Below are positions 24,962 through 51,031 of a stretch of 64,000 bases of DNA, one piece after another. Numbering within the stretch: position 1 is the first letter of the stretch; every line of letters starts with the position of its first letter. The notes under the pieces were generated by a model. It saw only the letters and a program-made list of their open reading frames with translations. It did no database searches and was not told the origin of the DNA. The stretch spans positions 1-64,000 of the forward strand of contig JAHHHZ010000029.1 of NCBI GenBank assembly GCA_019359095.1, read 5' to 3'. A program made the translations under genes and the position numbers. Source of the stretch: Pleurocapsa minor HA4230-MV1. GTDB lineage: Bacteria; Cyanobacteriota; Cyanobacteriia; Cyanobacteriales; Xenococcaceae.

Positions 24962-24979
24962 ATGAAATCGAGATGAAAT
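24962..24979 (-). promoter_or_regulatory. RppA-type box upstream of tolC-rppA-rppB
   Basis: ATGAAAT-CGAG-ATGAAAT on the plus strand (ATTTCAT-N4-ATTTCAT towards the gene). Both half-sites are perfect, and the tolC start is 98 bp away. This implies autoregulation of the two-component genes. Confidence 0.6.
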
Positions 24980-25068
24980 TTCCACAAAATTAGACCCTAA
25001 CTACAAGTTAGAGTCTGAAAACAATAATCGATAAGGATAATTTACTTTACTTTTTTCATAAGTAAATT

Positions 25069-25548
25069 TTAATTTGATGAGTAAGTACGAACTTCAGCCG
25101 TTCCGAGTGGAATTTCTGCTGTCAACCCTACTGGTTTGCTATAAACTCTATACAGCAAACTTTGATCGAAACCTGTAGTTCTAACACCACGTAAATTAAC
25201 TTTTAGAACCGTATCAGGAGCAACTGCTTGAGTAAAAGCGATAGTTGCTTTTCCGCTATTAATAGAAGCTTGAGCATCAATTTTTTGACCAGTTACATCT
25301 GTTACTTCAATATCTTTAGAAAGACTTACTTTTTCTGGTAAATAGATCGAAAGCTCCGAAATAGGGGTTTTTTGAACATGAACTTTAAAGTTATGAGTAG
25401 CGTTTTGAATACGAGCATTACTGGGAATTGCTGCACTATCAAAAAGATGGTTAGCATCAGGATAATCTGACTTTCCGCTTGCCCAAGCTGTAGCTGGTAA
25501 AGATATGGCAATTAAGGTAAATGCAACAGTAGAAATTAGCTTTTTCAT
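25069..25548 (-). CDS. DUF2808 secreted protein, copy 1
   Basis: The 159-residue protein has a signal peptide ending at ATAWA-SG (about residue 24). The DUF2808 domain follows, a beta-rich fold found almost only in cyanobacteria (IQNATHNFKVHVQKTPISELSIYLPE, later LRGVRTTGFDQSLLYRVYSKPVG). The function is unknown. It pairs with a second DUF2808 gene 100 bp upstream. The proteins share only the domain, so they are old paralogues. Each has its own regulatory box, here at 25609-25626, linking them to the metal regulon. Confidence 0.75.
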   Translation of the reverse strand: MKKLISTVAFTLIAISLPATAWASGKSDYPDANHLFDSAAIPSNARIQNATHNFKVHVQKTPISELSIYLPEKVSLSKDIEVTDVTGQKIDAQASINSGKATIAFTQAVAPDTVLKVNLRGVRTTGFDQSLLYRVYSKPVGLTAEIPLGTAEVRTYSSN

Positions 25549-25608
25549 GATTTATTCCTTGAAATAATTAACTTTATTGGTTCTTATTTATTAGTTTGAC
25601 AAAGCTAA

Positions 25609-25626
25609 ATGAAATCGAAGTGAAAT
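25609..25626 (-). promoter_or_regulatory. RppA-type box upstream of DUF2808 copy 1
   Basis: ATGAAAT-CGAA-GTGAAAT on the plus strand, with one mismatch in the second half-site, 61 bp before the start at 25548. Confidence 0.55.
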
Positions 25627-25646
25627 TTCAGTTTTTTGTATGTTTT

Positions 25647-26132
25647 TTAGCGTTGAAAATTACGAATTTGGGTAACGCCAAGATCTAATTCTGTTTCGGT
25701 ATCGGCAAGCTTTGTTTTGATTCGATAGCTCCAAGAGTTGCGATGAAGTCTTGAAAGAATTACTTTATTCATGTCAATTTCAATCTCGTTTGTTGACTTA
25801 AGTGGTTCAGTAAAATTAATAATTACTGCATCATCACCAACATTAGAGTTAGTTGCTATCTCTTTCCCAGATCGATCATGTACTGTAATATCGTTTTTGA
25901 CAGTAACTCCTGGAGATAAAATAACTTTTACTTGAGAAACAGCAGAACTAGTTTCAGGAATTTGAATTCTAAAGGTATGTCTCACATTTGACCATCTTGT
26001 TTGAGGAGATTGAGTAGAGCCTACAAGATAAGGAACGGTTGATTTTTCTCTAGTTGAATAGGCAAAAGTAGCAGAGCTTAAAACTGTAAAAGCAACAGTT
26101 GTAGCTATAGTAAAAATAAGTTGTTTTTTCAT
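25647..26132 (-). CDS. DUF2808 secreted protein, copy 2
   Basis: The 161-residue protein has a signal peptide (about 1-24, SSATFA) and a DUF2808 domain. Within it, RWSNVRHTFRIQIPETSSAVSQVKVIL opens the domain and IEIDMNKVILSRLHRNSWSYRIKTKLAD closes it. It should be periplasmic or surface-exposed. The domain is of unknown function. Its own box lies 86 bp upstream, so each DUF2808 gene can be switched on independently by the same regulator. Confidence 0.75.
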   Translation of the reverse strand: MKKQLIFTIATTVAFTVLSSATFAYSTREKSTVPYLVGSTQSPQTRWSNVRHTFRIQIPETSSAVSQVKVILSPGVTVKNDITVHDRSGKEIATNSNVGDDAVIINFTEPLKSTNEIEIDMNKVILSRLHRNSWSYRIKTKLADTETELDLGVTQIRNFQR

Positions 26133-26217
26133 CTTGAGTCTTAAGAAGTAAAGATTTTTTACTTTAGATTCACGTTTATTTCATGAATCTTTAGATCTAC
26201 TAAATTGACTGATGAAA

Positions 26218-26235
26218 ATGAAATCAAGATGAAAT
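26218..26235 (-). promoter_or_regulatory. RppA-type box upstream of DUF2808 copy 2
   Basis: ATGAAAT-CAAG-ATGAAAT on the plus strand. Both half-sites are perfect, 86 bp before the start at 26132. Confidence 0.6.
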
Positions 26236-26311
26236 TTAGATTTTTTACCTAAAGATTTAATTTTTCTCTTAAGACTTACTTATTTGAAAATAGGGTTTTT
26301 ACTAAAAAGAA

Positions 26312-26345
26312 AACCCCGTTTTAATCTCATTATTAAAAACGGGTT
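26312..26345 (-). terminator. Intrinsic terminator downstream of the FixH/YtkA-like gene
   Basis: On the minus strand AACCCGTTTTTAAT pairs with ATTAAAACGGGGTT around a short loop and is followed by TTTTCTTTTT. This is a textbook rho-independent terminator. The surrounding spacer (26133-26505) otherwise holds only the DUF2808 copy 2 promoter and A/T-rich sequence. Confidence 0.75.
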
Positions 26346-26505
26346 CGTTACAAAGGTGTAAAAAATACCAACTTAGCTATTAATTAAACTATTAGTTTTA
26401 AATATATATTAGCTTTCATGGAAAGTTAATTCAAAAAGTATCAATTATAACTCTGGCATTGCCATTGAATTATCTTGAGCGCTGACATTTTCAGCTAAGA
26501 AAATA

Positions 26506-26982
26506 TCATTGCTGAAAACTAAAACGACCGTTTACGTTTTCTCCACTAGCATCTGCGGTTATTTTAACTTGATATTGACCAATTGTCGTACCAGGAAATA
26601 AAACCGTGTAATGTTTTTCTTCAGCATCATAAGTGAGATTTAGACTTTGTTGTTTGCCATCAGGTGACTGAACTAGAGCCGTTACTTTCGCATTAGGAAT
26701 AGCTTCGTGAGTATCACCTTTTTGTAAGTACAAGTCTAAGTGAGTTCCATTTGACTCTTTCTCAGGTACAAATTCTAAATGATAAGGACCTGATTCGACT
26801 ACTTGTCCTCCAAGAGATTCACCACTATCATCTTTATTACTATTGGCAATAATTGAAGTATCAACTTGGGATAAAGAATTTGTAGAAGAGTTATTTAAAT
26901 CTTTACCTTGAGCGACGTTACTATAGACTAATGAAATTCCGAAAATACTTAAACTAATTAAAATTAATCTAGATAATTTCAA
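26506..26982 (-). CDS. Secreted FixH/YtkA-like beta-domain protein
   Basis: The 158-residue protein has a signal peptide (about 1-26, ending VAQG) and a 35-residue Ser/Asn-rich linker. A beta-sandwich follows (YHLEFVPEKESNGTHLDLYL, VTALVQSPDGKQQSLNLTYD, HYTVLFPGTTIGQYQVKI), the layout of FixH/YtkA-like domains. Such domains often accompany copper transport systems, but no Cys or Met-rich copper site is evident here. It has its own box and terminator, so it is a single-gene unit beside the RND pump gene. Confidence 0.6.
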   Translation of the reverse strand: MKLSRLILISLSIFGISLVYSNVAQGKDLNNSSTNSLSQVDTSIIANSNKDDSGESLGGQVVESGPYHLEFVPEKESNGTHLDLYLQKGDTHEAIPNAKVTALVQSPDGKQQSLNLTYDAEEKHYTVLFPGTTIGQYQVKITADASGENVNGRFSFQQ

Positions 26983-27046
26983 GTTACTTCCTCCTTATTT
27001 AGAAAATTGAATTTACAACAGATTCTACTTAGAATGACATTCCAAA

Positions 27047-27064
27047 ATGAAATGAAGATGAAAT
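27047..27064 (-). promoter_or_regulatory. RppA-type box upstream of the FixH/YtkA-like gene
   Basis: ATGAAAT-GAAG-ATGAAAT on the plus strand, 65 bp before the start at 26982. About 45 bp around it (27024-27068) are nearly identical to the promoter of the RND pump at 30295-30339. Confidence 0.62.
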
Positions 27065-27145
27065 TTTAGCAGAAGTTTTATCATTTGCGCGAAGATATGC
27101 AATTGCGTTAGCGAAGCTTCTACGTTATTAATGAAACCAGAATTT

Positions 27146-30100
27146 TTAGATTTTAATTACCTCCGAAATTACCTTACCATCCTCAACGACCGACGTATTC
27201 GGCTTGGGTATCAAGAACTTGCCAAACTTAGCGTACAAGGCGGGTAAGACTAACAAAGTTAATGCAGTAGAAGTAACCAACCCTCCCAGTACCACGACAG
27301 CTAGAGGTCGCAAAATTTCTTTTCCCGCACCCGTGCCGATAACCAACGGAATCATTCCCAAAGCAGAAGTCAACGCTGTCATCAAAATAGCTACTAAACG
27401 TTCCATAGAACCCTCAAAAATGACCTGCCGTAAAGGCATTCCCCCTGCTAGTTTATTGTTATAGTTATCCACCAGCAGCAATCCGTTGCGTGTTGCCACT
27501 CCGAATAAAGTAATAAATCCCACTAGCGAGGCTACAGATATTATTCCTCCTCCTATGGCAATAGAAAATATCCCTCCTACTAATGCCAGAGGCAGGTTAA
27601 TCATAATCATCAGCATAGCTCCCAAAGATTTTACAGCGAAATACATTAAAACTGCGATTACGATAAGTGCTAGTCCCCCATAGATTAATAAATTCTGACT
27701 TGCTCGTTGTTCCGATTCAAATTGACCGCCGTATTGAATAAAATAGCCTGTAGGCAACTGCACCGACTGACCTACACGCTCTTGAATTTCGTCTACGACT
27801 GAACCTAAGTCTCGACCCGATACATTGGCAGAAACAACGATTAAACGAGAAACATTTTCTCGATTAATTGTGTTAGGTCCCGTTCCATAATCAATGTTGG
27901 CAACTTGAGCGAGGGGAATTTTTTGACCTGTAGGTGTATCGATTAATAAATTACGGATTACGTCTAAGTTGTTGCGAGCTTCTTCACGCAACCAAACCAC
28001 CAAGTCAAACAATTGCTGTTCTTGGAGAACTTGAGAGACGACTGTTCCATTGAGTGCTGTTTCCACCATCTCAGCTAGATTACCGACGCTTAATCCGTAG
28101 CGTGCAGCTGCTTCTCGGTTAAATTGAATTTGTACCTGTTTGATAGGTACTTGGGGTTCAAGTTGTAAATCTACCAGCCCCTCAATATCTTGTACAGTTT
28201 CTTCTACCTCAGAACCCAAACGACGTAATTCTTTCAAATCAGGACCAAAAACTTTAATTGCGATCGCACTTCTGACTCCAGACAATACTTCATCCATGCG
28301 GTGGGAAATAAATCCGCCAATGTTAGGAGCGACTCCAGGAATTCTCGCAAATTCCTCTCGTAACTTGTCAATACTCCCTTCTCTATCTTTCAATCCCTCT
28401 TCGCTCAATTCTACATCTAAATGACCCAGGTTGACTCCGCCTGCATCAGCATCCCCTGAGGCGCGTCCAGCCCTTAGCTGTACAGTTTTGAATCGCTTAT
28501 CTTCTTTGAGGGCATCCTGCATTACTATTCCAGCCTGATTTGTCGCTTCCAAAGAACTTCCTGGATAAAGCAGCATCGTATTCACCAATGATGGTTCTTC
28601 AAATTCTGGTAAAAATACCCGTCCTAAACTTGGCAGAATTGCCAAAGAAGCGACTAAAGAAGCTCCTGCTACTACTAAAATAATGTTGGGGGAACGGGTA
28701 GCAAAATTAAGCAGAGGTCGATAAATTCGTTGCGATAAAGCACTAACCCAAGTATCATCCGATGGCAAAGGTCGCTTGGTTAGCAAAATCGCGCACAGTG
28801 CTGGAGATAGGGTCATTGCCACCAGGGTAGAAGCAAAAATTGATACTAAGTAAGCAACACCCATCGGCGCAAAAATGCGACCTTCTACTCCCGTCAGCGA
28901 AAAAATAGGTGCAAAGACAACCGCAATAATGACTGTGGAAAAAATAACGCTGACTCGTACTTCTACTGAGGTGTCGTAAACCACTTGAAAAGGATGCACG
29001 GGATTTTCTGCCAACTGATTCTTTCGCAAACCTCGATAAGCATTTTCCATATCGACAATCGAGTCATCTACTACCGAACCAATTGCCACTGCTAAACCAC
29101 CTAAAGTCATAGTATTAATTCCCTGACCGAACCAGCTTAAAATCAGCATTCCAATCAAAACCGATAAAGGAATTGCGCTGAGGGTAATAATGGCAGTGCG
29201 CCAGTTCATCAAAAATAATAATAGGATAATCGAAACAATAATAATTCCGTCACGCAGAGAACCAGTAACGTTTTCGATTGCAAATTCAATAAAATTTTCC
29301 TGACGAAAAGTTTCCGTTACTGTTACATCTTTGGGTAGTCCAGCTTTGACCTCTTCTATCGCCATTTCAATCTCTCTGGTAACGGTAGGAGTATCGTATT
29401 GAGGTTGTTTATTAATCATCACAACAATAGCTGACTGACCATTTAAACTGCCATCCCCACGCTTCAAAGCAGCTCCAATTTTCACGTCTGCTATATCTTT
29501 AAGTAACACGGGTGTGCCATTACGAGCGGTTATCGCCGAATTTACCAATTGCTCGATTGACTCAATGCGTCCCATGCCACGAATAATAATTTCTTGGTCG
29601 GGATTAATCAAAAAACCGCCTGCTGCATTAACATTAGCTCCTCTAGCTGCTGTGGTTACTTCATCTAAGGTAATATTAAAAGCTTTTAACTTAGCTGGAT
29701 CGACCAATACCTGATATTGGCGCACATCTCCCCCATAGGCAATGATTTGAGAAATCCCTGGTATAGCTAGCAATCGATTAGTTACATCGCGATCAATTAA
29801 GCGTCGCACCTCCATGAGTGGAGTCGTTTGAGCCGTGAAGGCGTACTGAACGACTGTACCAATCGGAGAAGAAATAGGGGAAATTTGCGGATTTTCAACG
29901 CCTTCTGGTAATTTTTGCACTATCTGTTGCAATCGCTCCGTTACCAACTGACGTGCTTGATAAATATTTGTCCCCCACTTGAAGATTACTTTGACCACGG
30001 AGATGCCCACCGCAGAAGAAGAACGCACTGTTTCTACGCCAGGCGTACCATTGACCGTACTTTCAATCGGCAGAGTAATTAGCGATTCAACCTCTTCAGG

Positions 30101-30271
30101 AGCGAGTCCTGGGGCTTCTGTTTGGATTTCTACCTGTGGAGGGGCAAAGTCAGGAAAGACATCTAAAGGCATTTTGGTGAGATTATACGAACTCCAGATT
30201 GTGACGACAATGGCTCCTATAACTACCAGCCAGCGTTGGATTATCGACCATTTGAGAATAGAGTTGAGCAT
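27146..30271 (-). CDS. Heavy-metal efflux RND permease (CusA/CzcA family)
   Basis: The 1041-residue pump has the RND plan: TM1 near 14-32, a large periplasmic porter domain, and a cluster of TM segments around 340-500. A second periplasmic domain and the last TM segments follow. FPDFAPPQVEIQTEAPGLAPEEVE is the HME-RND start. The TM4 motif VDDSIVDMEN carries the acidic proton-relay residues. It should export monovalent or divalent metal ions from the periplasm, with the adaptor at 35722-37425 and TolC at 23470. No Met-triad of CusA could be placed with certainty, so the metal is left open; copper is favoured by context. Confidence 0.88.
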   Translation of the reverse strand: MLNSILKWSIIQRWLVVIGAIVVTIWSSYNLTKMPLDVFPDFAPPQVEIQTEAPGLAPEEVESLITLPIESTVNGTPGVETVRSSSAVGISVVKVIFKWGTNIYQARQLVTERLQQIVQKLPEGVENPQISPISSPIGTVVQYAFTAQTTPLMEVRRLIDRDVTNRLLAIPGISQIIAYGGDVRQYQVLVDPAKLKAFNITLDEVTTAARGANVNAAGGFLINPDQEIIIRGMGRIESIEQLVNSAITARNGTPVLLKDIADVKIGAALKRGDGSLNGQSAIVVMINKQPQYDTPTVTREIEMAIEEVKAGLPKDVTVTETFRQENFIEFAIENVTGSLRDGIIIVSIILLLFLMNWRTAIITLSAIPLSVLIGMLILSWFGQGINTMTLGGLAVAIGSVVDDSIVDMENAYRGLRKNQLAENPVHPFQVVYDTSVEVRVSVIFSTVIIAVVFAPIFSLTGVEGRIFAPMGVAYLVSIFASTLVAMTLSPALCAILLTKRPLPSDDTWVSALSQRIYRPLLNFATRSPNIILVVAGASLVASLAILPSLGRVFLPEFEEPSLVNTMLLYPGSSLEATNQAGIVMQDALKEDKRFKTVQLRAGRASGDADAGGVNLGHLDVELSEEGLKDREGSIDKLREEFARIPGVAPNIGGFISHRMDEVLSGVRSAIAIKVFGPDLKELRRLGSEVEETVQDIEGLVDLQLEPQVPIKQVQIQFNREAAARYGLSVGNLAEMVETALNGTVVSQVLQEQQLFDLVVWLREEARNNLDVIRNLLIDTPTGQKIPLAQVANIDYGTGPNTINRENVSRLIVVSANVSGRDLGSVVDEIQERVGQSVQLPTGYFIQYGGQFESEQRASQNLLIYGGLALIVIAVLMYFAVKSLGAMLMIMINLPLALVGGIFSIAIGGGIISVASLVGFITLFGVATRNGLLLVDNYNNKLAGGMPLRQVIFEGSMERLVAILMTALTSALGMIPLVIGTGAGKEILRPLAVVVLGGLVTSTALTLLVLPALYAKFGKFLIPKPNTSVVEDGKVISEVIKI

Positions 30272-30317
30272 GAAAAATTTAATTTACGACTGACTCTACT
30301 TAGAATGACATTCCAAG

Positions 30318-30335
30318 ATGAAATGAAGATGAAAT
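30318..30335 (-). promoter_or_regulatory. RppA-type box upstream of the RND pump gene
   Basis: ATGAAAT-GAAG-ATGAAAT on the plus strand, 47 bp before the start at 30271. Flanks match the promoter at 27024-27068, indicating a duplicated promoter segment. Confidence 0.62.
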
Positions 30336-30517
30336 TCTAACTGAAGTTTGATTGTTGGCACGAAAATACTTAATCTTGTTTAAAATTCGCTCTTGTTTCT
30401 GCACAAAATTTTATAAGAAAATTTGTTCGCGAAAAAGTTTAACATCCGCTAGCTTTACAGTTATTAAGAGATTTAATTAATTTAATTTATCAAATTTAGA
30501 TTTAAAAACGGCACGAA

Positions 30518-30535
30518 ATTTCATTTTGATTTTAT
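30518..30535 (+). promoter_or_regulatory. RppA-type box upstream of a secreted-protein pseudogene
   Basis: ATTTCAT-TTTG-ATTTTAT, the same orientation relative to the gene as the others but pointing right, 56 bp before the pseudogene start at 30591. One mismatch is present. The rest of the 30272-30590 spacer is A/T-rich and gene-free. Confidence 0.5.
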
Positions 30536-30590
30536 CGGCGATTGAAACAATAAGAATTTAGATATAGTCAAATACAATCCAGTCGATCTG

Positions 30591-31352
30591 ATGTTTATGA
30601 GAATAATTAAAACTAGCAAGTTTTTATTTTTTGTAATTATTATAAATCTTTTCAGCATTGATGTATTAGCAGCACAAAACATTACTTTTGAATATAGAAA
30701 TTTTGTATTAGAGAAGACTGCAATTTTAGCAAAAAATCATTCGTCTCAAACAAATACTAAATTTACCTTCGAAAATTATTTAATTAGACATCAAGGAATT
30801 AATATCTTAGACATCAGTATTCAATATAGTTCTTTTTTAGAAAAAACTAGTTTAATTTCTTATAAAAAAGTATATTTAAACAAGTACAATCTCTACTGCA
30901 AAATTATCCTAGTGAAACTGATTATTGGGAAATAGTCAACTACTATTTAACTCAAAAAATTATCCAACAAAATACTGAATTGTCTTCAGTAACTATTACT
31001 TTGGCAGTTTATCCCAATCAAGAATACTCTTATCATCGCTCAACCACTGTAACTCAAACTTACAGTAGTTGAGAAAAAGAATCTTGGCATTTTAATTTTC
31101 CTGCAAATTTTATACAAAAAAGTCAAGATTCGCTAATGCAAATTGATGTGTATTATACTTATAAAAATAATTTTTCTTCCATTAATTATCCCGACTTTAT
31201 TCCGATTTACTAGCAAATTAAAAACTTTATCGAGACTAGCGTTATTACTAAGGAAGAATCTTGGACAAATATAGAGCAGTAGTTAAAAACAACCTTACTT
31301 CAGCAAAATCCAATGTTTTCCTCTTTATCTCTTGAATTAAAAAAAACAAATT
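30591..31352 (+). pseudogene. Decayed secreted-protein gene
   Basis: The frame opens with a signal peptide (KFLFFVIIINLFSIDVLAA). It shifts frame near 30880 and continues as QVQSLLQNYPSETDYWEIVN, then LSSVTITLAVYPNQEYSYHR. In-frame stops occur near 31071 (TGA), 31212 (TAG) and 31280 (TAG). I do not recognise the family. The remnant suggests an exported protein of about 250 residues. Its promoter box is still present, so the gene was once part of the same regulon. Confidence 0.6.
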
Positions 31353-31552
31353 AAATATTTAGAAAAATTAGTAAGCAGACAAACATAATTAAACTGAATC
31401 ATGTTTAAATTAATTACAATTTTCTAACTTCTAATTCTCAAAATTAGCTTTATTCACTTTAGCTACTTAAACACATCAAGATTAAAGCAATAATCGATGA
31501 TTAAAAATGGCTACAAATACCATAGTTTAGGCAAAATAAGCGAAAAAAACAA

Positions 31553-32509: not shown

Positions 32510-32527
32510 ATGAAATTGAGATGAAAT
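32510..32527 (+). promoter_or_regulatory. RppA-type box (reverse orientation) before the copper-storage gene
   Basis: ATGAAAT-TGAG-ATGAAAT, both half-sites perfect, with a third ATGAAAT at 32545-32551. The orientation relative to the downstream gene (32671) is opposite to that in the other promoters. Confidence 0.5.
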
Positions 32528-32670: not shown

Positions 32671-33018
32671 ATGACAGCAACTCATCAATCCCAACTTGAA
32701 ACTTGTATTCAAGCTTGTTTTGATTGCCTGCGCGCTTGTGAAAATTGTGCCACTGCCTGTTTAGACAGCGATATGGTACAAATGATGGCTCAATGTATCA
32801 AACTGTGTCGGGACTGTGCTGATACTTGCGACATCTGCGCTCGCTTTATGTCTCGTAATTCCGACCTTCACGCCCAATTGTGCGGAGTTTGTGCAGAAGC
32901 TTGCACGCGCTGTGCTGCTGAATGTGAGAAACACGACCACGAACACTGTAAACGTTGTGCTACATCTTGCCGTCGTTGTGCCGAGTCTTGCCGACAAATG
33001 GCAGCAGCAATGGCATAA
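32671..33018 (+). CDS. Four-helix-bundle copper-storage protein (Csp-type)
   Basis: The 115-residue protein contains 21 cysteines, mostly as CxxxC pairs one helical turn apart (CIQACFDCLRACENCATAC and onwards). This is the hallmark of Csp proteins, in which Cys lining the core of a four-helix bundle store many Cu(I) ions. No signal peptide is present, so it is a cytosolic Csp3-type store. It lies amid the efflux and oxidase genes with a good ribosome site (AGGAG). Its likely task is to buffer cytosolic copper not yet exported by CopA. Confidence 0.9.
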   Translation: MTATHQSQLETCIQACFDCLRACENCATACLDSDMVQMMAQCIKLCRDCADTCDICARFMSRNSDLHAQLCGVCAEACTRCAAECEKHDHEHCKRCATSCRRCAESCRQMAAAMA

Positions 33019-35721: not shown

Positions 35722-37425
35722 TTAGTTTGGTTTTTGGAACTCTTCGTGTTCTTCGGCAGAATCAATCGAGGAAGATAAAGTTGAAGTTTGATGATGATTG
35801 TTTAGATAGATTTCTGTTTCATAGGACGTTGCTTTATCTTCTTTGCGCGATCGATGGCGGCGACTAGTAAAATAACCACCTGCTAAGAAAGCACTCACAC
35901 CAATTACGCCTCCTCCTGTTGCGCCTAACAACCATAAAGGGAGTTGCTCTTCTAAAGTAGTGCTGCTAGATTGACTTTCTTGAGATTTTTTCGCTTCGTC
36001 AGCCCCTCCCTCTGGCTTGGTTGCTGTTTCTTCTTTACTGCCTCCTCGTAGAGATTGAGCGTAAAGCTGCGGCGCACGCTGAGTAACTACTAAATCTCCT
36101 TCAAAAAGACCGCTTTTGACTTCTACCAAATCTCCAGAAGTTTGACCGAGATTGACTTCGACAGATTGAAAAGAGTCGCCGTTCTGCAAATAAACTAGTT
36201 TTTTACCTTCTGCATCAACTATTGCCGAACTGGGAATGACTGTAGCTGTTGTATCTGCTTTAGTAGTCATTACTTCTAATTCGGCAAACATTCCTGGTTT
36301 GAGAGTACCGTTATTATTGCTTAATTGGGCTTTAACTGGGACAACGCGAGTTTCTCCTTCGACTATCGAACCAATTACCGCAATCTTGCCGATAAAAGCG
36401 CGATCGCTCAAGGAAGCTACTTTGGCTCTGACTTGTTGACCCTGTTTAACTTTATCTAAATCTTGTTCGTAAATATTAGCCGTGGCAAATACGGTGGTGT
36501 CATCGATAATTGTCATCAGCTGGCCTCCTGCATCTTGAAAGGCTTGACCTAAAGTAACTTCGCGATCGCTAACTCGACCAGAAATAGGTGCTGTTATTAT
36601 CGCCAGTCCTCGATCGTTTGCTTCTGTACCTAGTTGTTGCAGTCGAGCTTGATAAGTAGTATTGCTCAGCTGTAGAAGAGAATTAGCTGCTTCAAGAGAC
36701 GACTGAGAGCGTTTGAGTTGGTTTTGAGCCGCCAAAACTTCTCTTTGACTCGAAGCTGTGGTAAGTTGGGCTTTGGTTTCTGCTAGCTTGGCTTGAGATT
36801 CGAGCATTTGCCGACGGGGAATAACTCCTTTGTTTGCTAGTTCTCGATCGCGATCGTATTGTTCTTGTGCTACTGCTACTTGGGTTTGCGCTTGTTGTAA
36901 TTCGGCTTTGGCAATTTCAACTTGACGTTGATAGTTTTGTTGGGCTAAATCTAAATCGGCTTGTGTTTGTTGTAATTCGGCTTTGGCTTGAGCTTGTTTT
37001 TCTTGGGAACTGACGCGCAACTCAATCAAGTCAGGACTGGCAATTACCGCTACAGGCTGTCCTGCTTTTACGTATGCCCCAGGTTCTACTAATAACTCGT
37101 TTACTTTTCCAGGAATTGGCGATGTAACTTCTACTTGTTGGCTGGGTAGAGCTTCAATTTGTCCAGTCGTTTTAATGCTAATGTCAAGACGTTGACTGGT
37201 AACTGGTTCGACTTTTATTCCCAAACTTTTGGCGGTTTGATCGTCAACTTGGATCGAATCTGAAGCTTCTTGTTGAGAATCTCCGCCTTGAAATTCGTTC
37301 CCATGTCCGGCGTGAGCCAGAACAGAAGTAGGAGCGGTTATTAAAATTAAACTCAAGATTACTCCAGTACTACGGGTGAGGGAATTAGGCAAGCGAAACA
37401 GATAACGAGTAATGGTCATAGTCAA
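35722..37425 (-). CDS. RND efflux periplasmic adaptor (CusB/CzcB family) with extra C-terminal TM
   Basis: The 567-residue protein has a signal peptide (about 1-38) and a His-containing start (HAGHGNEFQGGDS). The split lipoyl motif is at 97-130 (PGKVNELLVEPGAYVKAGQPVAVIASP). A long coiled-coil hairpin follows (about 140-260), then lipoyl/beta-barrel parts and a membrane-proximal domain. Unusually, after a charged linker there is a further TM segment (WLLGATGGGVIGVSAFLAGGYF) and a basic 50-residue tail. It should connect the RND pump to TolC. Its gene is separate from both, with a box at 37585-37602. Confidence 0.85.
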   Translation of the reverse strand: MTMTITRYLFRLPNSLTRSTGVILSLILITAPTSVLAHAGHGNEFQGGDSQQEASDSIQVDDQTAKSLGIKVEPVTSQRLDISIKTTGQIEALPSQQVEVTSPIPGKVNELLVEPGAYVKAGQPVAVIASPDLIELRVSSQEKQAQAKAELQQTQADLDLAQQNYQRQVEIAKAELQQAQTQVAVAQEQYDRDRELANKGVIPRRQMLESQAKLAETKAQLTTASSQREVLAAQNQLKRSQSSLEAANSLLQLSNTTYQARLQQLGTEANDRGLAIITAPISGRVSDREVTLGQAFQDAGGQLMTIIDDTTVFATANIYEQDLDKVKQGQQVRAKVASLSDRAFIGKIAVIGSIVEGETRVVPVKAQLSNNNGTLKPGMFAELEVMTTKADTTATVIPSSAIVDAEGKKLVYLQNGDSFQSVEVNLGQTSGDLVEVKSGLFEGDLVVTQRAPQLYAQSLRGGSKEETATKPEGGADEAKKSQESQSSSTTLEEQLPLWLLGATGGGVIGVSAFLAGGYFTSRRHRSRKEDKATSYETEIYLNNHHQTSTLSSSIDSAEEHEEFQKPN

Positions 37426-37584: not shown

Positions 37585-37602
37585 ATGAAATAAAGATGAA
37601 AT
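37585..37602 (-). promoter_or_regulatory. RppA-type box upstream of the RND adaptor gene
   Basis: ATGAAAT-AAAG-ATGAAAT on the plus strand. Both half-sites are perfect, 160 bp before the start at 37425, the greatest distance in the set. Confidence 0.58.
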
Positions 37603-37900: not shown

Positions 37901-38620
37901 TTATTGTTTGTACCAATCCTTACGCCATTGTTTCATCTGCTCGATTTCTTGCTGTTGAGAACTTAAAATATCTTGAGCTAGTTTCTCGATCTCAGGACGC
38001 TTGGTTTTACTCAAAGCATCTTCCGCCATCATCAGCGCACCTTCATGATGAGGAATCATGGCATCAATAAAACGCAGATCAAAATCAGCATCGGCTTCCC
38101 CTAAATCCATGCTCATCATCATACTTTGCTCCATATCTTCAGACATTGCCATCATGTGACCCATCTCTGCACTCCAAGCCATAGGAGTTTGATCGGCATT
38201 AGGATACCAACTTGTACGCCACTGTTTCATTTGCGCTATTTCTTGTTTCTGAGCAGCAATGATATCTTGGGCTAATTTTTTCATTTCAGGACGCTGCGAT
38301 TTTTGCAGTGCTTCTTCAGCCATATTCATAGCCCCTTGATGGTGCATAACCATGCTGTCGATGAAACGTAAATCGTAGTCCGCATCAGCAGGCCCTATGT
38401 CCATCGACATATCGTGCTGCATCCCACCATCACCTTGCATCATATCGTGCGACATTCCACCGTCATTCTGTTTCATGTCTTGCTTGTTACTAGCTTCGGT
38501 GGCATTAGTATTTAAGGCTGGGGTTTGGTTAGAAATGGCTGGAGAACAGGCAACCGTTAGGGTAGTTGCACCGATAAATGTTAAGGCTATTAATCTAGTT
38601 TTAGTCAAAATTGCTTGCAT
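37901..38620 (-). CDS. DUF305 periplasmic protein (CopM-like), copy 2, two repeats
   Basis: The 239-residue protein has a signal peptide/lipobox-like start (LTVACSPA, Cys25). It has a Met/His/Asp-rich linker (MKQNDGGMSHDMMQ and similar) and two tandem DUF305 units of about 75 residues each. These are RFIDSMVMHHQGAMNMAEEAL and RFIDAMIPHHEGALMMAEDAL. Both carry the HH/Met copper motif and the EIxQMKQW helix. It is likely a periplasmic or membrane-anchored copper binder related to CopM. The box at 38672 puts it in the proposed regulon. Confidence 0.87.
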   Translation of the reverse strand: MQAILTKTRLIALTFIGATTLTVACSPAISNQTPALNTNATEASNKQDMKQNDGGMSHDMMQGDGGMQHDMSMDIGPADADYDLRFIDSMVMHHQGAMNMAEEALQKSQRPEMKKLAQDIIAAQKQEIAQMKQWRTSWYPNADQTPMAWSAEMGHMMAMSEDMEQSMMMSMDLGEADADFDLRFIDAMIPHHEGALMMAEDALSKTKRPEIEKLAQDILSSQQQEIEQMKQWRKDWYKQ

Positions 38621-38671: not shown

Positions 38672-38689
38672 ATGAAATCGAGATGAAAT
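38672..38689 (-). promoter_or_regulatory. RppA-type box upstream of DUF305 copy 2
   Basis: ATGAAAT-CGAG-ATGAAAT on the plus strand. Both half-sites are perfect, 52 bp before the start at 38620. Confidence 0.62.
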
Positions 38690-38703: not shown

Positions 38704-40179
38704 TTAACCTTTCATCTCAACAATTCCCATCATGCCGAGATCTTCATGGTCTAAAATGTGACAGTGGTAAACAGCTTTGCCAGCAAAATCGCGGAACCGA
38801 ATGCGAATGCGGACAGTTTCATTCCCTTTGACTAACACCGTATCTTTCCAAGCGCGGTAGGGTTCTGGCTTCCCATTACGAGATACCACTTGAAAGGGAT
38901 TGACGTGCAGATGAAAAGGGTGAGCCATACCATCTGGATCAACGTTGACTAATTCCCAGTCTTCAACTGTATTGAGTTGAACTTGAGTATCTACTCGATT
39001 GGGATCGAAAGCTTCTCCGTTAAAGGTAAAAGTCATACCCATACCTGGAGTCATTTCTTCTTCCATTGATAATTCAATATGCCTTACTGTCTTTGGTTTT
39101 GGTAGTTCCTCCACAGAAATGAGTTGTTGGGGCAAAGGAAGAGGAGAAACAGAACCTTGATATGTGAGTGTTGCCAAAACTTGAGGCTTTGTTTGGGTAT
39201 TTTCCTGCATCATGCCCATACCACCACCCATCATTTCCATCATTTCCATTCCCCCTCGATCATAGAATAAATTCATGAGGCGATACTGTCCTGATTCTCT
39301 ATCTCCTCGTACCAAAACTTCTGCCCTTTCTCCAGGTGAAAGCAGTAGTTCTTTGAGTTCTATAGGTGTGCCTATTGCTCCTCCGTCTGTGGCAATTAAG
39401 TAAAAAGGATGATTTTCCAAAGCGAGTCGGTAGAAGCGAGAGGGAGAAGCATTGAGGATTCGTAGACGTAGCAAACCACCACGGGCGATCGCTAATTGGG
39501 GATTGACTTGACCGTTAACTGTCATTAGCTGCCCTTCGCGCCCCCTCATCATGTCCATGTGATTGGGAGCTTGAATCCGTCCGCTACCATCTAAAGCAAA
39601 ATCTTGTAAAACCAAAAATTTTTCTTTGGCAGCTTTTAGTTCGGGAATTTCATCCAAGTCACCGCGAATTATAAATAAACCCGCTAAACCACCGAATACT
39701 TGCTCGGCAACAAATTTATGACGATGGGGATGATACCAGAATGTTCCAGATGGGTGATTTTTGGGAAGAGTAAATTCATAAGTTAAACTCTCTCCTGACG
39801 GAATATCCAGAAAAGCGTTGTCTGCATTGCCAGTGGGAGTAACGTGTAGCCCGTGATAGTGTAAGTTAGTAGGCTGAGAAAGATTGTTGGTGAAGCGAAT
39901 GCGAACGGTATCGCCTGCTTTTGCTTCCAAGCGAGGTGCGGGGATTTGTCCGTTGTAGGTTAACAGATAGGCTGGCTTGCCTCCTAGATCGATGCGGGTC
40001 GAACTCGCTGTAAGATTAAATTCTAGCAAACCGTTAGAACTCTTGTAAAGTTTAGCAGGCAAGGTTTTGGTTTGATTCGGAGTTATTTTGTTTTTCCCAA
40101 TTGCCCAGCTAGTAGCTGATGTGGCGATTGCACCAGCAGCAGTGAGGATGAGAAACTGGCGACGGTTAATTTTTGACAT
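38704..40179 (-). CDS. Three-domain multicopper oxidase (CueO/CopA-type)
   Basis: The 491-residue protein has a Tat signal (NRRQFLILTAAGAIATSA). All four copper-binding clusters are present: LHYHGLH near 104, FWYHPHRH near 149, HPFHLHVNPF near 426, and YHCHILDHEDLGMM near 474, which holds the type-1 Cys-His-Met. A Met-rich loop (GGMEMMEMMGGGMGMMQ) near 315 resembles that of CueO and suggests Cu(I) oxidation. It is periplasmic and detoxifies Cu(I). A second oxidase of the same type at 51754-54929 is broken. A box lies 54 bp upstream. Confidence 0.9.
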   Translation of the reverse strand: MSKINRRQFLILTAAGAIATSATSWAIGKNKITPNQTKTLPAKLYKSSNGLLEFNLTASSTRIDLGGKPAYLLTYNGQIPAPRLEAKAGDTVRIRFTNNLSQPTNLHYHGLHVTPTGNADNAFLDIPSGESLTYEFTLPKNHPSGTFWYHPHRHKFVAEQVFGGLAGLFIIRGDLDEIPELKAAKEKFLVLQDFALDGSGRIQAPNHMDMMRGREGQLMTVNGQVNPQLAIARGGLLRLRILNASPSRFYRLALENHPFYLIATDGGAIGTPIELKELLLSPGERAEVLVRGDRESGQYRLMNLFYDRGGMEMMEMMGGGMGMMQENTQTKPQVLATLTYQGSVSPLPLPQQLISVEELPKPKTVRHIELSMEEEMTPGMGMTFTFNGEAFDPNRVDTQVQLNTVEDWELVNVDPDGMAHPFHLHVNPFQVVSRNGKPEPYRAWKDTVLVKGNETVRIRIRFRDFAGKAVYHCHILDHEDLGMMGIVEMKG

Positions 40180-40232: not shown

Positions 40233-40250
40233 ATGAAATCGGTATGAAAT
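40233..40250 (-). promoter_or_regulatory. RppA-type box upstream of the multicopper oxidase
   Basis: ATGAAAT-CGGT-ATGAAAT on the plus strand. Both half-sites are perfect, 54 bp before the start at 40179. Confidence 0.62.
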
Positions 40251-44769: not shown

Positions 44770-44806
44770 TGAATAGACATTCAAGCTTAAAATGAGTATC
44801 ATTATC
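44770..44806 (+). promoter_or_regulatory. Upstream sites of the ArsR/SmtB gene (SmtB-like dyad and Fur/Zur-like box)
   Basis: TGAATAGACATTCA (44770-44783) is a SmtB-like inverted repeat. AAAATGAGTATCATTATC (44789-44806) resembles a Fur/Zur box, matching most of the classical 19-bp consensus on the opposite strand. Both lie about 75-110 bp before the ATG at 44882. They are predictions from pattern only. Confidence 0.4.
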
Positions 44807-44881
44807 AAAGAAGTAAACTCACAACTCTATTAACCCAGGATTGTCTAAGCAACTAAACTGATAGGGTTTAAAGTATAAACA

Positions 44882-45277
44882 ATGAACAAAGTTGACAAAT
44901 CAAAAAAAACAGTTTCTCCAGAAGGTGATGCACCTACTTGTGATTCTTCTTTGGTTCATCTAGAACAAGTGCGTCAAGTACAATCTGAAATCGTTACAAC
45001 GGAAAAAGCACAACAAATGGCGCAGTTTTTCGGTGCAATGGCAGACCCTCATCGGCTTAAACTTCTTTCTGCGTTAGTCAAAGCTGAACTTTGCGTCTGT
45101 GATTTAGCCGCAGTAGTTAAAATGAGTGAATCTGCTGTATCCCACCAGTTACGTCTGCTACGAAATCTACGTCTGGTTAAGCATCGTCGTGAAGGTCGTA
45201 ACGTCTATTACAGCTTAGCAGACGCGCATATTGCCAATCTATATCGGGAAGTAGCCGAGCATTTAGACGAAGTTTAA
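44882..45277 (+). CDS. ArsR/SmtB-family metal sensor (ZiaR-like)
   Basis: The 131-residue repressor has winged-helix DNA binding (LAAVVKMSESAVSHQLRLLRNLRLV). Two potential metal sites are present. The alpha-3N site has Cys20, Cys71 and Cys73 (ELCVCD). The alpha-5 site has Asp114, His116 and His127 (DAHIANLYREVAEH). Carrying both is typical of ZiaR-type zinc sensors. It should release DNA on zinc or cadmium binding and control the adjacent P-type ATPase, whose promoter holds a SmtB-like operator at 45325. Confidence 0.88.
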   Translation: MNKVDKSKKTVSPEGDAPTCDSSLVHLEQVRQVQSEIVTTEKAQQMAQFFGAMADPHRLKLLSALVKAELCVCDLAAVVKMSESAVSHQLRLLRNLRLVKHRREGRNVYYSLADAHIANLYREVAEHLDEV

Positions 45278-45324
45278 TTCTTGCTTTCTATTCATTGTCA
45301 GATTACTTTTTTTGGGATATTATC

Positions 45325-45346
45325 TGAACAACTATTCAATTGTTCA
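45325..45346 (+). promoter_or_regulatory. SmtB/ZiaR-type operator before the zinc ATPase gene
   Basis: TGAACA-AC-TATTCA (45325-45338) is the classical SmtB/ZiaR half-site arrangement, followed by ATTGTTCA, an overlapping inverted repeat of the first half. It lies 30-50 bp before the ATG at 45376. Confidence 0.65.
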
Positions 45347-45375
45347 ATTAAAATAATTTTAAAATTGTTGGGATA

Positions 45376-47304: not shown

Positions 47305-47373
47305 TTTTTCTAGCAACTATCATCTTAAAACTCGCTCAAATTTAATCAATTCACTATCTAGAGGTTTTTCAAT

Positions 47374-48300
47374 ATGATACGTCGTCATCAGCGTTCTATT
47401 CCTTGGATTTATCGCTATTATCGTCCAATTATGGCAGGAATAGCTACTATTGGTGCGGTAGGAACAGGTTATTTAACAGTAGTTAAACTAACCGAAGGAG
47501 CAGCAGCTTGTCCTACAGGAGGTTGCGATGTCGTGCTATCGAGTCCTTATGCCACTGTTTTTGGTTTACCCTTGACTCTATTTGGTTTTTTAGGCTATTT
47601 GAGCATGATTATCTTTGCCATTGCGCCTTTGTTGCTCACTTCTCCAGAGAAAAAGCAACTACGCGCCAGTTTGAAGCGGTGGACGAGTTGGTTTCTGTTT
47701 CTGGGTGGAACGGCAATGGTAGTGTTTAGTAGTTATTTAATGTATTTACTTGCCTTTGTCATCAAAGCTCTTTGTATTTACTGTATTGCTTCGGCTTTGT
47801 TTTCAGCTTGTCTGTTTATTTTGTCCATTATTGGTCGCGATTGGGAAGATCTCGGACAACTTTTGTTTACGGGAGTTATGGTAACGATCTTAGTTTTGGT
47901 AGGAACACTAGGCGTTTATGCCAATGTCAATAATCCTCGTGTTGAAACTACCAACGGCTATGCTATTTCTACTACTTCTGGTGCTGCGGAACTCGATCTA
48001 GCACAACATTTAAAGCAAATTGATGCAAAAATGTATGGGGCTTTTACCTGTCCTCATTGTCAGAATCAAAAACAGTTATTTGGTAAAGATGCAGCAGCCC
48101 AATTGAATTATATTGAGTGCCATCCCCAGGGAGAAAATTCCCAAACTGACCTTTGTATGAAAGCGAATATTCAAGGTTTTCCTACCTGGGAAATTAAAGG
48201 AAAAATGTATCAAGGAGAAAAAACTTTAGCAGAGTTAGCAGATTTATCTGGCTATCAGGGCGAGCGCCATTTTAAAAATAGTTCCGAAGAGGGACATTAG
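47374..48300 (+). CDS. VKOR-thioredoxin fusion (disulfide-forming oxidoreductase)
   Basis: This 308-residue membrane protein has a VKOR domain of about five TM helices. A loop cysteine pair lies in AACPTGGCDVVLSSPY and the active CxxC is in CIYCIASALFSACLF. A C-terminal periplasmic thioredoxin-like domain (about 205-308) has FTCPHCQNQKQLFG. This is the usual cyanobacterial/plant LTO1-type fusion that makes disulfides in the periplasm and passes electrons to quinone. It follows the zinc ATPase in the same direction by 69 bp. Metal stress damages thiols, so a link is plausible. Confidence 0.92.
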   Translation: MIRRHQRSIPWIYRYYRPIMAGIATIGAVGTGYLTVVKLTEGAAACPTGGCDVVLSSPYATVFGLPLTLFGFLGYLSMIIFAIAPLLLTSPEKKQLRASLKRWTSWFLFLGGTAMVVFSSYLMYLLAFVIKALCIYCIASALFSACLFILSIIGRDWEDLGQLLFTGVMVTILVLVGTLGVYANVNNPRVETTNGYAISTTSGAAELDLAQHLKQIDAKMYGAFTCPHCQNQKQLFGKDAAAQLNYIECHPQGENSQTDLCMKANIQGFPTWEIKGKMYQGEKTLAELADLSGYQGERHFKNSSEEGH

Positions 48301-48318
48301 ATTGTTGATAAACTTTCG

Positions 48319-48642
48319 TTAGTTTCTGGGAGCATACATCATGACTAACACTCCTAGTAATATAATCCAACCACCCAGCAGATCGAATTTATCAGGTCTA
48401 ATCCGATCGATCAGCCAGCCCCATGAGATAGACAGCACAATAAAAACACCACCATATGCTGCATAGGCACGTCCAAAGTTAGTGGGTTGTAGTGTTGGAA
48501 CTGCGCCATATAAACCCAGGATCGCAACTCCGATTAGGGCTAGCCAAATACTCTTTCCCTCTCGCAACCATAGCCAGACCAAATAACCCCCACCAATTTC
48601 GCAGAGTCCAGCTATGACGAAAAATAACATTGATTGAATCAC
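48319..48642 (-). CDS. YnfA-family small membrane protein
   Basis: The 107-residue protein has four TM helices. It shows the family sequence [25 protein letters not shown] near the start and [24 protein letters not shown] later. The YnfA family belongs to the drug/metabolite (SMR-like) group. Its substrate is unknown. It is read against its neighbours, and its start region overlaps the leader of the downstream TPR gene by a few bases. Confidence 0.88.
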
Positions 48643-48701
48643 TTATGCATCCTCTTTTACCTTTACCTCTAAAATTATCCCTCGTTAATCGAAAACAACT
48701 A

Positions 48702-49796
48702 ATGCAGGTGAAACTACTAATATTTAAGCTCGTTCTCTTAAATGGAATAGTCGGGGTAATTTTACCTGTTAATGCTCATTCACCTAATGAGACATTAGAA
48801 CAATGGCAAGCAGATCGAGAATTTAATCAACTTTTAAGTCAAGGCAAAGGATTACTAGATCGGGGTAAACTGGCTGAGGCATTGAGTGCTTACCAACACG
48901 CAGCTAGTTTAGAACGAGAAAATCCACGGGTCTTTTCGGCAATCGGTTATTTACAAGCGGTTCGAGGTAAATTTCCCGCAGCAGCAAGTGCTTTCCAAAA
49001 AGCGATCGCTCTAGAAAGTGACAATGCTTATTTTTATTACGGACTGGCTTATAGCCTCGCTAGTTCTCAAGCTCATGCTGAAGCTGCCAATGCTTACAAT
49101 CAAACCATCAAACTCAATCCGAATCTGGTAAATGCTCATTTAGGTTTGGCAGTGGTGCTGCTACGCCAACAAAACTACGATGATGCATTGGATGCTTTTG
49201 TAAGAGTAACTACCCTCGCACCAGATAATACCCTCGTCTATCGCACAATGGGAACAATTCTACTCCAGAAAGGACAGTTTACTAAGGCGATCGAAGTTTT
49301 ACAGCGAGCAGCCGAACTTGCTCCCTCTAACAGTGCAATTCAACTTGAATTGGGAATTGCTTGGTTGAATCTAAACAATATCCCTAAAGCCATAGCAGCT
49401 TTTGAACGGGCTGCCGAGTTTAATCCTGAAGATGGCAAGATTCATTTTCAGATTGGCAGAATTCTTCAGCTAGAAGGCAATACAGAATCCGCGTTAGCCG
49501 AGTATCGTAAAACAGCAAGCCGAGAACCCGATCTTGTTGCAGCCAGAAAAGCGATCGCCGATATTCTTTTAGAACAGCAAGATTACCTAATGGCGATCGT
49601 CGAACATCGTCAGGTGATTTCCCTCGCCCCAAAGGATGCTAAGTCTTATTATCACCTCGGACTGGCATTAAAAGAAAGAAAACGTAATCAAGAAGCCATT
49701 ACCGCCTTCCAACAAGCTTTAAACCTCTATAAACAGCAGGGTAATACCAAGCAAGTAGAAGAGATAAAAATTATTTTAGATGACTTACGAAAATAG
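48702..49796 (+). CDS. Secreted tetratricopeptide-repeat protein
   Basis: From ATG 48702 the protein has 364 residues with a signal peptide (about 1-22, ending VNAHS). It then has about nine TPR units of 34 residues, such as AEALSAYQHAASLERENPRVFSAIG and later DDALDAFVRVTTLAPDNTLV. It is a periplasmic or outer-membrane scaffold for protein partners, with no enzyme motif. The frame opens further upstream (48630), but ATG 48702 matches the signal peptide. It lies between the VKOR and CDF genes with a 3-bp gap to the latter, so it may act with the transporter. Confidence 0.75.
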   Translation: MQVKLLIFKLVLLNGIVGVILPVNAHSPNETLEQWQADREFNQLLSQGKGLLDRGKLAEALSAYQHAASLERENPRVFSAIGYLQAVRGKFPAAASAFQKAIALESDNAYFYYGLAYSLASSQAHAEAANAYNQTIKLNPNLVNAHLGLAVVLLRQQNYDDALDAFVRVTTLAPDNTLVYRTMGTILLQKGQFTKAIEVLQRAAELAPSNSAIQLELGIAWLNLNNIPKAIAAFERAAEFNPEDGKIHFQIGRILQLEGNTESALAEYRKTASREPDLVAARKAIADILLEQQDYLMAIVEHRQVISLAPKDAKSYYHLGLALKERKRNQEAITAFQQALNLYKQQGNTKQVEEIKIILDDLRK

Positions 49797-49799
49797 CTA

Positions 49800-50450
49800 A
49801 TGATACCAATCAAGAGCGATCGCTATAAGAAAATACCTTTAGAAGAATCTAAAACTCAAACGCTGAAATTATTATGGATTGTTTTATGTCTGCGAAGCGG
49901 ATTATTTTTAGCTGAGTTAATTACGGGATTTCGAGTACATAGTTTATCCCTAATCGCTTTATCTGGTCATCTTTTTGTCGATTTAATTGCGATCGCTATT
50001 GCTCTAGTTGCTGCTTGGTTAGTTGAAGATTCTACTCAAACTAAGTTACTACTAAAACCTCAGCAAATTGAAGCTGTAGCTGCCTGCGTTAATAGCTTTA
50101 TTCTCTTAGCAGTGGCAGGATCGATTCTTTGGGGAATTACGCATAATTTCCAAGCTTCTGCCTCTGAAGCTGGTTTACCGATGTTGGCAATAGGAGCATT
50201 AGGACTGACCGTTAAAGTAATAAATGCCAGTTTACTTTACGAAGAAAGCCACCATAACTTGAACGTGCGGGGCGTATTTTTTCATGCGATCGCCGATGGT
50301 GTAAGTTCGTTTAGTTTGTTAATAGCAGCGTTAGCTATTTTTTATTTAAATTGTCTTTGGGCAGATACGGCAGCTAGTTTATTAGTAGTTGTTTTTATGC
50401 TGGTTAGTGCCTTTTCCCTACTTAAAGATAGTCTGCAAGCTCTCGAGTGA
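49800..50450 (+). CDS. CDF-family cation efflux protein without C-terminal domain
   Basis: The 216-residue protein has six TM segments. Both CDF metal-binding HxxxD pairs are present: SGHLFVDLIAI (His57, Asp61) in TM2 and FFHAIADGVSS in TM5. The cytosolic C-terminal domain that most CDF proteins carry is absent. It should move Zn(II) or a similar divalent ion out of the cytosol using protons. It begins 3 bp after the TPR gene, which suggests one transcript with that periplasmic protein. Confidence 0.75.
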   Translation: MIPIKSDRYKKIPLEESKTQTLKLLWIVLCLRSGLFLAELITGFRVHSLSLIALSGHLFVDLIAIAIALVAAWLVEDSTQTKLLLKPQQIEAVAACVNSFILLAVAGSILWGITHNFQASASEAGLPMLAIGALGLTVKVINASLLYEESHHNLNVRGVFFHAIADGVSSFSLLIAALAIFYLNCLWADTAASLLVVVFMLVSAFSLLKDSLQALE

Positions 50451-50605
50451 AGGGTTGTAGACTATCTTTAAAATTGAACTCATACCCTATCTTAGCTGTA
50501 AGTAGCTGCACAAAATTAATTTCACGGTTGAGGTAGGGGAAAGGGAAAAGGGAAAAGGAACATCAAATGTGTAATTATTTGTGTTTAGGTACTTACTGCA
50601 TTTGG

Positions 50606-50956
50606 CTATTTAGCTGGCATTGGCGAATTGTTTGGCATTGGCATCTCATCCTCTCCAGAATTCATCATTTGTTCGTGATTCATCTCTGTATTAGAGTTAT
50701 CGTCACACTGTTGCATTGACATTTGGTGTTCTTCTGAACTCATCTGTTCGTGATTCATCTCTACATTCGAGTTGTTGGAACATTCCTGCATGGGTTTTGA
50801 TTTCCCATCAGAATTTATCATTTGTTCGTGGTTCATTTGGGATTCACCATTATTTTGGTTTGTTGATTCTGCTGAAGCTATTCCATTACCAATGCCTACA
50901 GCTACAGACGTTAACATCGCCATTGCTATTAGTTTTATCTTTGAATTAATATGCAT
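50606..50956 (-). CDS. Secreted Met/His-repeat protein (MNHEQM repeats)
   Basis: The 116-residue protein has a signal peptide (about 1-29, ending ASAES). Three MNHEQM repeats (about 41-46, 67-72 and 92-97) are separated by Ser/Asn/Gln-rich linkers with single Cys residues (QECSNN, QQCDDN). The tail has repeated MPMP. The pattern is a low-complexity metal-binding protein, probably for copper. A regulatory box lies 58 bp upstream. No named family is recognised. Confidence 0.7.
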   Translation of the reverse strand: MHINSKIKLIAMAMLTSVAVGIGNGIASAESTNQNNGESQMNHEQMINSDGKSKPMQECSNNSNVEMNHEQMSSEEHQMSMQQCDDNSNTEMNHEQMMNSGEDEMPMPNNSPMPAK

Positions 50957-51013
50957 ATATTTAACCTGTGAAAAGCTAAGAAGTTTTTATACTTACCAAT
51001 TATTGATAATAAA

Positions 51014-51031
51014 AATGAAATCAGCATGAAA
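51014..51031 (-). promoter_or_regulatory. RppA-type box upstream of the MNHEQM-repeat gene
   Basis: ATGAAAT-CAGC-ATGAAAT on the plus strand. Both half-sites are perfect, 58 bp before the start at 50956. Confidence 0.6.

Follow-up and report, generated by a model that had tools for sequence, protein, structure and literature searches.

A probable CopR-type copper regulon spread over single promoters in a metal island of Pleurocapsa minor HA4230-MV1

What switches on the metal island on contig JAHHHZ010000029.1 of the cyanobacterium Pleurocapsa minor HA4230-MV1, in which copper-defence genes stand in separate units behind copies of the same direct repeat? The window, meaning the whole stretch that was analysed, comprises 64,000 nucleotides (nt; positions 1 to 64,000 of the forward strand). 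A reading made from the sequence alone (the sequence-only reading) had listed ten sites of the form ATTTCAT-N4-ATTTCAT, here called the box, and proposed an RppA-type regulon. We find that one OmpR-class regulon over the island promoters is strongly supported, and the sequence evidence makes it very likely that the repeats are the sites of a CopR-type response regulator encoded at 22755-23450, by which the copper-defence genes of the island would be switched on jointly. Binding, activation and copper as the signal are all three what we infer from this evidence.

All ten listed sites are present, eight of them with two exact half-sites and two (25609 and 30518) with 13 of 14 bases. Nine of the coordinates were correct, the last site starts at 51015 instead of 51014, and an exact site on the reverse strand at 32510-32527 had been missed; the island total is 11 boxes, nine exact and two with one mismatch in 14. 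Exact boxes occur nine times in the 5,636,891-base genome (36 contigs), all on contig C29 at 24962-51032, where about 0.24 would be expected genome-wide from the base composition of the window, and none appeared in 100 shuffles of the window. Equal frequency of the motif elsewhere in the genome, which the sequence-only reading had named as a point that would count against it, is thus not what the scan returned: exact boxes lie solely in the island. With one mismatch allowed the genome total rises to 17; 11 of these lie in the island, and the six outside it are at chance level, since a reversed-pattern control reaches 10. Island confinement, shuffles and expectation together rule out chance or an AT-rich background as the source of the boxes. 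One-mismatch sites on C10, C20, C21 and C24 and at C13:164475 were dismissed as chance, and none of them fits the extended pattern described below at three mismatches.

The arrangement is that of an OmpR/PhoB-class operator, as had been proposed: two direct half-sites one helical turn (11 bp) apart, near or replacing the -35 element. In the ten sites other than 32510 the distance from the end of the box to the called gene start is 47-160 bp, inside the 45-160 bp given earlier. Searching up to 300 bp upstream of 14 other starts (Spy-like, four-helix, flavodoxin, second DUF305, MerR, cupredoxin, copper ATPase, HMA, zinc ATPase, DUF411, rppA, rppB and two further oxidases), we found no same-strand match better than 5/18 mismatches. 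Upstream of some boxes, third and fourth half-sites continue in the same 11-bp phase (window 24973-24990; L039:7835-7874), as if several dimers could bind there.

Alignment of the boxes, numbered from 0 at the first base, shows TG at positions 25-26, followed by A at 29 and T at 33. This TG..A...T pattern can be read as a putative extended -10 (TGn) plus the two -10 bases that are conserved best. Among the ten island sites with a gene, T25 is present in 8, G26 in 9, and A29 and T33 in all 10. We examined the register further in 114 boxes (at most one mismatch) from 47 loci, which are no random sample because they were picked for holding a regulator or boxes. A same-strand open reading frame (ORF) starts within 260 bp of 96 of these boxes, and all four -10 bases occur at offset 0 in 68 of the 96, compared with 0-7 at each of the twelve remaining offsets between -6 and +6. 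The register therefore implies that the box spans about -40 to -23. By this rule the copM transcript of plasmid pSYSX would begin at L040:11376. PMC4890671 reports a 26-nt leader, which places the start at 11378, 2 nt from the prediction, assuming the same start codon as in the annotation. In the Pleurocapsa genome, the combined box and -10 pattern has ten matches with at most one mismatch, all in the island, and two with two mismatches, namely site 51015 and C13:310944. At three mismatches there are 26 matches against 19 in the reversed control, and because this control is so high, weaker sites are not claimed.

The link to CopR of Synechocystis that the sequence-only reading had suggested is strongly supported. 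The same repeat is found on pSYSX as ATTTCATCCTGATTTCAT upstream of copM and as ATTTCATCTTGGTTTCAT upstream of copB. CopR is reported to bind the copM and copB promoters of Synechocystis (PMC4284471), and two direct repeats are described in the copM promoter (PMC4890671, citing Giner-Lamia 2012).

The box also accompanies the regulator family across cyanobacteria. Taking a match of at least 300 bits (our own threshold) to mark an RppA-positive genome, 63 of 292 cyanobacterial genomes are positive. In these, 128 exact boxes compare with 7 reversed controls, and 47 genomes have at least one box. The 229 genomes below the threshold contain 33 exact boxes and equally 33 reversed controls, with a box in 29 of them. 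Among the 150 boxes listed (161 were counted), 78 have an RppA gene of at least 300 bits within 20 kb, or 65 of 132 when this genome and a congener are excluded. As an out-of-sample set we took 15 of the 34 plasmid copM genes listed among 70 matching records, selecting for a spread of genera and without prior sight of the DNA. An exact box lies at most 260 bp upstream of 13 of these genes, followed in 10 of the 13 by the full -10; the best control match, reversed or on the opposite strand, always had at least 5/18 mismatches. Copper induction is reported for the copM homologues of Anabaena PCC 7120 (PMC4335983). Similar copper islands are carried by plasmids 3 (L038) and 1 (L039) of Chondrocystis sp. 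NIES-4102, with regulators 97.8% and 86.8% identical to that of the island, respectively. A wider regulator search gave mainly non-cyanobacterial matches; six of the loci from it were also scanned for the box, and L147 was used in an alignment and in one fold.

The island encodes one RppA-family regulator, and its operon, tolC-rppA-rppB, has its own box at 24962. The earlier label RppA-type holds as far as the NCBIfam match goes (399 bits); since the pSYSX CopR gene is also so named, and the model spans CopR and NrsR-like members alike, this match does not discriminate between copper and nickel. In other respects the label fails: the regulator stands outside the nrsBA clade, the promoters have the 7-bp copper spacing and the targets are copper genes, so that CopR-type regulon is the better name. 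As the protein also falls outside the pSYSX CopR sub-clade, it is classed as CopR-type and not as a CopR orthologue. The segment SNVVAAQxRLxRRK, which from general knowledge of OmpR-class proteins we take to be the recognition helix, is identical across eight aligned members of the RppA/CopR family.

We propose that the kinase would sense a metal, most likely periplasmic copper, and phosphorylate the regulator, a head-to-tail dimer of which would bind both half-sites at about -40 to -23, in the -35 position, and recruit RNA polymerase to a weak extended -10 (TGnnAnnnT) 7 bp downstream. The expected outcome would be joint induction of outward and periplasmic copper defence, comprising the RND pump, its adaptor, the CopC-like protein, the TolC channel, CopM and the multicopper oxidase, together with the DUF2808 proteins, the Met/His-rich peptide, the regulator itself and probably one chromosomal copM paralogue.

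Several observations weigh against this assignment. Sixteen of the 63 RppA-positive genomes lack an exact box; of the four closer RppA loci, L145 and L146 are boxless at up to two mismatches; and in the copM set, 2 of the 15 genes, those of Brasilonema (L233) and one Calothrix (L238), lack an exact box upstream. In the island itself, box 51015 lacks the TG, and no same-strand ORF of at least 60 amino acids starts within 260 bp of box 32510. Neither tree of the regulators groups the island protein with pSYSX CopR, as orthology would have it, and in the first tree an unstarred group (93/91) contains both the NrsR-like clade and the ten-row clade of the island protein, to the exclusion of pSYSX CopR; because the trees separate the two regulators, copper is argued here from genes and spacing, not from descent. 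The binding partner, too, cannot be fixed by sequence alone, as the recognition segment is common to all clades. A different regulator, for example another OmpR-class protein of this genome, might occupy the repeats while the neighbouring pair controls something else, and there are 19 further genome matches to the regulator, among them L020 with a recognition segment that is similar in part. We regard this as very unlikely: the best of these other matches are only 45-46% identical to the island regulator, the boxes track RppA-family genes across genomes, and they are confined, save for one likely site, to the island that encodes the regulator. The repeats might also play no part in regulation and be copies, left when promoter DNA was recently duplicated or when a mobile element spread them, given the transposase-like genes seen by eye in the window and the likeness of boxes 27047 and 30318 over most of the next 30 bases. 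To this we give hardly any credence, since the flanks outside box and -10 differ at most sites while the spacing between the two is kept, and the pattern precedes unrelated genes in distant genera.

It is also conceivable, albeit unlikely, that the regulator works like RppA/NrsR and governs a nickel regulon or a broad-metal one. The NCBIfam name, the very similar repeat and common recognition segment at NrsR-like loci, and the unstarred group just described would all fit. However, the regulators beside nrsBA-type genes form a clade of their own that does not contain the island regulator (100/100 in the first tree; 99/100 in the second, where the long branch L128_6250 joins doubtfully). Both trees were drawn from a midpoint root, the second without L110_8702 (a very long branch), L135_10033 (a fragment) and the outgroups; NrsR-like is a name given by neighbour genes, with nrsR of PCC 6803 itself outside the comparison. 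The island regulator is 66.7% identical to pSYSX CopR compared with 59.4% to the NrsR-like protein of L105, its targets include CopM, CopBAC and a multicopper oxidase, and none of the island sites fits the 8-bp distance between box and TG seen at NrsR-like loci. The published RppA motif, AAMAWCTCYYWCCCC, is not clearly enriched in the window, with 4 matches at up to two mismatches where 2.2 are expected, and at least 4 in 17 of 100 shuffles. We therefore reject the NrsR/RppA reading on clade, spacing and published motif, with the reservation that descent does not settle copper versus nickel, and retain a CopR-type copper regulon.

The difference in spacing deserves closer description. In the nrsB-type promoters of NrsR-like loci, TG follows the box after 8 bp in 10 of the 10 loci looked at, with TA for TG in L121, three box mismatches in L126 and two each in L105 and L132. 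A search of the 292 genomes with a free spacer of 4-11 bp gave 102 matches against 1 in the reversed control, of which 87 have 7 bp, 10 have 8 bp, 3 have 5 bp, and one each has 6 and 9 bp. The 8-bp matches are all at nrsBA-type loci, eight of them within 6 kb of an NrsR-like regulator and the remaining two in G199, at an nrsBA-type locus that showed no intact regulator; none of the 87 7-bp matches lies within 6 kb of any regulator placed in the NrsR-like clade, a placement that covers matches of at least 300 bits. Eighteen of the 77 regulators at that threshold were unplaced and were compared with the placed ones: 13 are clearly closer to rows outside the NrsR-like clade; four, which belong to a single family of small genomes, are about equidistant and slightly nearer to NrsR-like rows; and G241 gave no callable ORF. 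In the stretches around these 18, boxes (at most two mismatches) with the full TG..A...T all have 7 bp, except for two with 8 bp that come from the four doubtful cases, and many boxes there lack the full -10. The doubtful, divergent RppA of small-genome cyanobacteria has a 13/14 box with 8-bp spacing beside copA/copB-like genes (L263:3429, L264:3685). As a sequence pattern, the 7/8-bp difference is clean in this sample. It is possible, though short of probable, that CopR-type and NrsR-type regulators share operator and recognition segment and that geometry separates their promoters, with 7 bp for copper and 8 bp for nickel; if true, a one-base shift would insulate two paralogous metal responses. 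A keyword-level search of the open-licence literature found no mention of 7- versus 8-bp spacing.

The targets listed by the sequence-only reading mostly stand (Table 1), while its FixH-like gene at 26506-26982 is a CopC homologue. The fold model of this CopC-like protein (mean predicted local distance difference test score, pLDDT, of 74, above 90 in the folded part) resembles copper-binding FetP/P19, CrdA and CopC with modest scores. For DUF2808 we obtained a weak model (pLDDT 68.7, from two sequences). The structures that match it best are unrelated beta-sandwiches, ranks 1-4 being a toxin (template-modelling score 0.44-0.50), with copper-binding YcnI at rank 8; we assign no function on this basis. 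The gene broken over two frames (window 30591-31500) has an uninterrupted counterpart of 256 amino acids on Chondrocystis plasmid 1 (L039:2233-3003). Box 32510 is kept in place and orientation in Chondrocystis (L039:583, exact; L038:7129, one mismatch), and an antisense or small RNA is possible there. Outside the island's contig, a chromosomal copM paralogue (L012; 70.7% identical to the island CopM) has a 13/14 box at C13:310960, within a pattern at C13:310944-310977, 53 bp upstream and with most of the -10; it probably belongs to the regulon. The copper ATPase, MerR (40282) and cupredoxin genes have no box within 300 bp upstream, which suggests that the cytosolic arm may be under separate control.

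In other loci, adaptors, pumps, CopM, DUF2808 proteins, oxidases and the regulator itself recur behind boxes. For 21 of the 96 boxes the assigned ORF resembles none of the reference proteins; some of these cases arose because a closer, spurious ORF had been assigned. Small peptides rich in His or in Met and His, whose N-termini look leader-like by eye, also stand behind a box at L114:10870, L117:7010, L119:6751, L126:12446 and L133:7685. In two genomes, a gene that by eye encodes a cysteine-synthase-like protein follows an exact box (L142:4128-5222, L143:5582-6676).

Table 1. Predicted CopR-type boxes and genes of the island (window coordinates; distances in bp run from box to gene start; identities are to pSYSX proteins unless stated)
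Feature	Position	Strand	Basis
Box, predicted promoter of tolC-rppA-rppB (autoregulation)	24962..24979	-	exact 14/14; TG..A...T in register; 98 bp from tolC
Box, predicted promoter of DUF2808 gene 25069-25548	25609..25626	-	13/14; full -10; 61 bp
Box, predicted promoter of DUF2808-like gene 25647-26132	26218..26235	-	exact; -10 off in 1/4 bases; 86 bp
Box, predicted promoter of copC-like gene 26506-26982	27047..27064	-	exact; full -10; 65 bp
Box, predicted promoter of RND pump gene 27146-30271	30318..30335	-	exact; full -10; 47 bp
Box, predicted promoter of ORF 30591-30935 (broken gene)	30518..30535	+	13/14; full -10; 56 bp
Box facing away from four-helix copper-binding protein gene 32671-33018	32510..32527	-	exact; -10 without last T
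Box, predicted promoter of RND adaptor gene 35722-37425	37585..37602	-	exact; full -10; 160 bp
Box, predicted promoter of copM 37901-38620	38672..38689	-	exact; full -10; 52 bp
Box, predicted promoter of multicopper oxidase gene 38704-40179	40233..40250	-	exact; full -10; 54 bp
Box, predicted promoter of Met/His-rich exported peptide gene 50606-50956	51015..51032	-	exact; -10 A and T present, TG absent; 59 bp
Sensor histidine kinase, RppB/CopS family	21400..22758	-	NF041735 685.5 bits (cut-off 400); 53.0% to CopS
Response regulator, RppA/CopR family, predicted box binder	22755..23450	-	NF041734 399 bits (cut-off 250); 66.7% to CopR
TolC-type outer-membrane channel, first gene of regulator operon	23470..24864	-	TIGR01844 E 3e-33, under model cut-off
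Exported DUF2808 protein	25069..25548	-	PF10989 25.2 bits, just below cut-off 25.3
Exported DUF2808-like protein	25647..26132	-	PF10989 23.4 bits, under cut-off; 24% identical to neighbour
CopC homologue (third gene of copBAC)	26506..26982	-	52.8% over 108 amino acids
Heavy-metal RND pump, CopA of copBAC	27146..30271	-	TIGR00914 above cut-off; 73.6% to copA
First part of broken gene	30591..30935	+	split over two frames
RND adaptor, CopB of copBAC	35722..37425	-	TIGR01730 above cut-off; 46.9% to copB
CopM (DUF305)	37901..38620	-	NF049983 above cut-off, two stretches; 45.9% to CopM
Multicopper oxidase, CueO-like	38704..40179	-	best NCBIfam match CueO, E 8e-76, under model cut-off
Met/His-rich peptide, export judged by eye	50606..50956	-	translation; no Pfam family at E 0.001

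Taken together, the island very probably carries a CopR-type copper regulon. Its kind is known but its dispersal is unusual, and what look new are the distribution over single promoters and the spacing difference of 1 bp. It provides a precise operator-plus-promoter rule for cyanobacterial copper defence, by which DUF2808 and small Met/His-rich peptide genes can be assigned to copper stress, while promoter spacing may reveal metal specificity. Here a copper regulon appears to consist of separate single promoters that sit together on mobile-looking, plasmid-like DNA.

Among known systems, CopRS of Synechocystis sp. PCC 6803 shares with the island the 11-bp-period direct repeat with TG..A...T in the same phase in both promoters (positions by eye) and homologues of CopM, CopR, CopS, CopB, CopA and CopC. 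It differs in having two operons, copMRS and copBAC, where the island genes stand in separate units with a box each, and in its regulator, which belongs to another sub-clade; TolC, DUF2808 proteins, the multicopper oxidase and the Met/His-rich peptide are extras of the island. NrsRS (RppAB) with nrsBACD is alike in regulator family, recognition segment and a similar repeat upstream of nrsB-type genes, but forms a separate clade, often has ATTTCAC as the first half-site, leaves 8 instead of 7 bp to the TG and has nrsBA-type efflux targets. The division of labour between CusRS and CueR in Escherichia coli is comparable in that a two-component system serves periplasmic copper defence alongside a MerR-type regulator gene; the genes and the operator are different.

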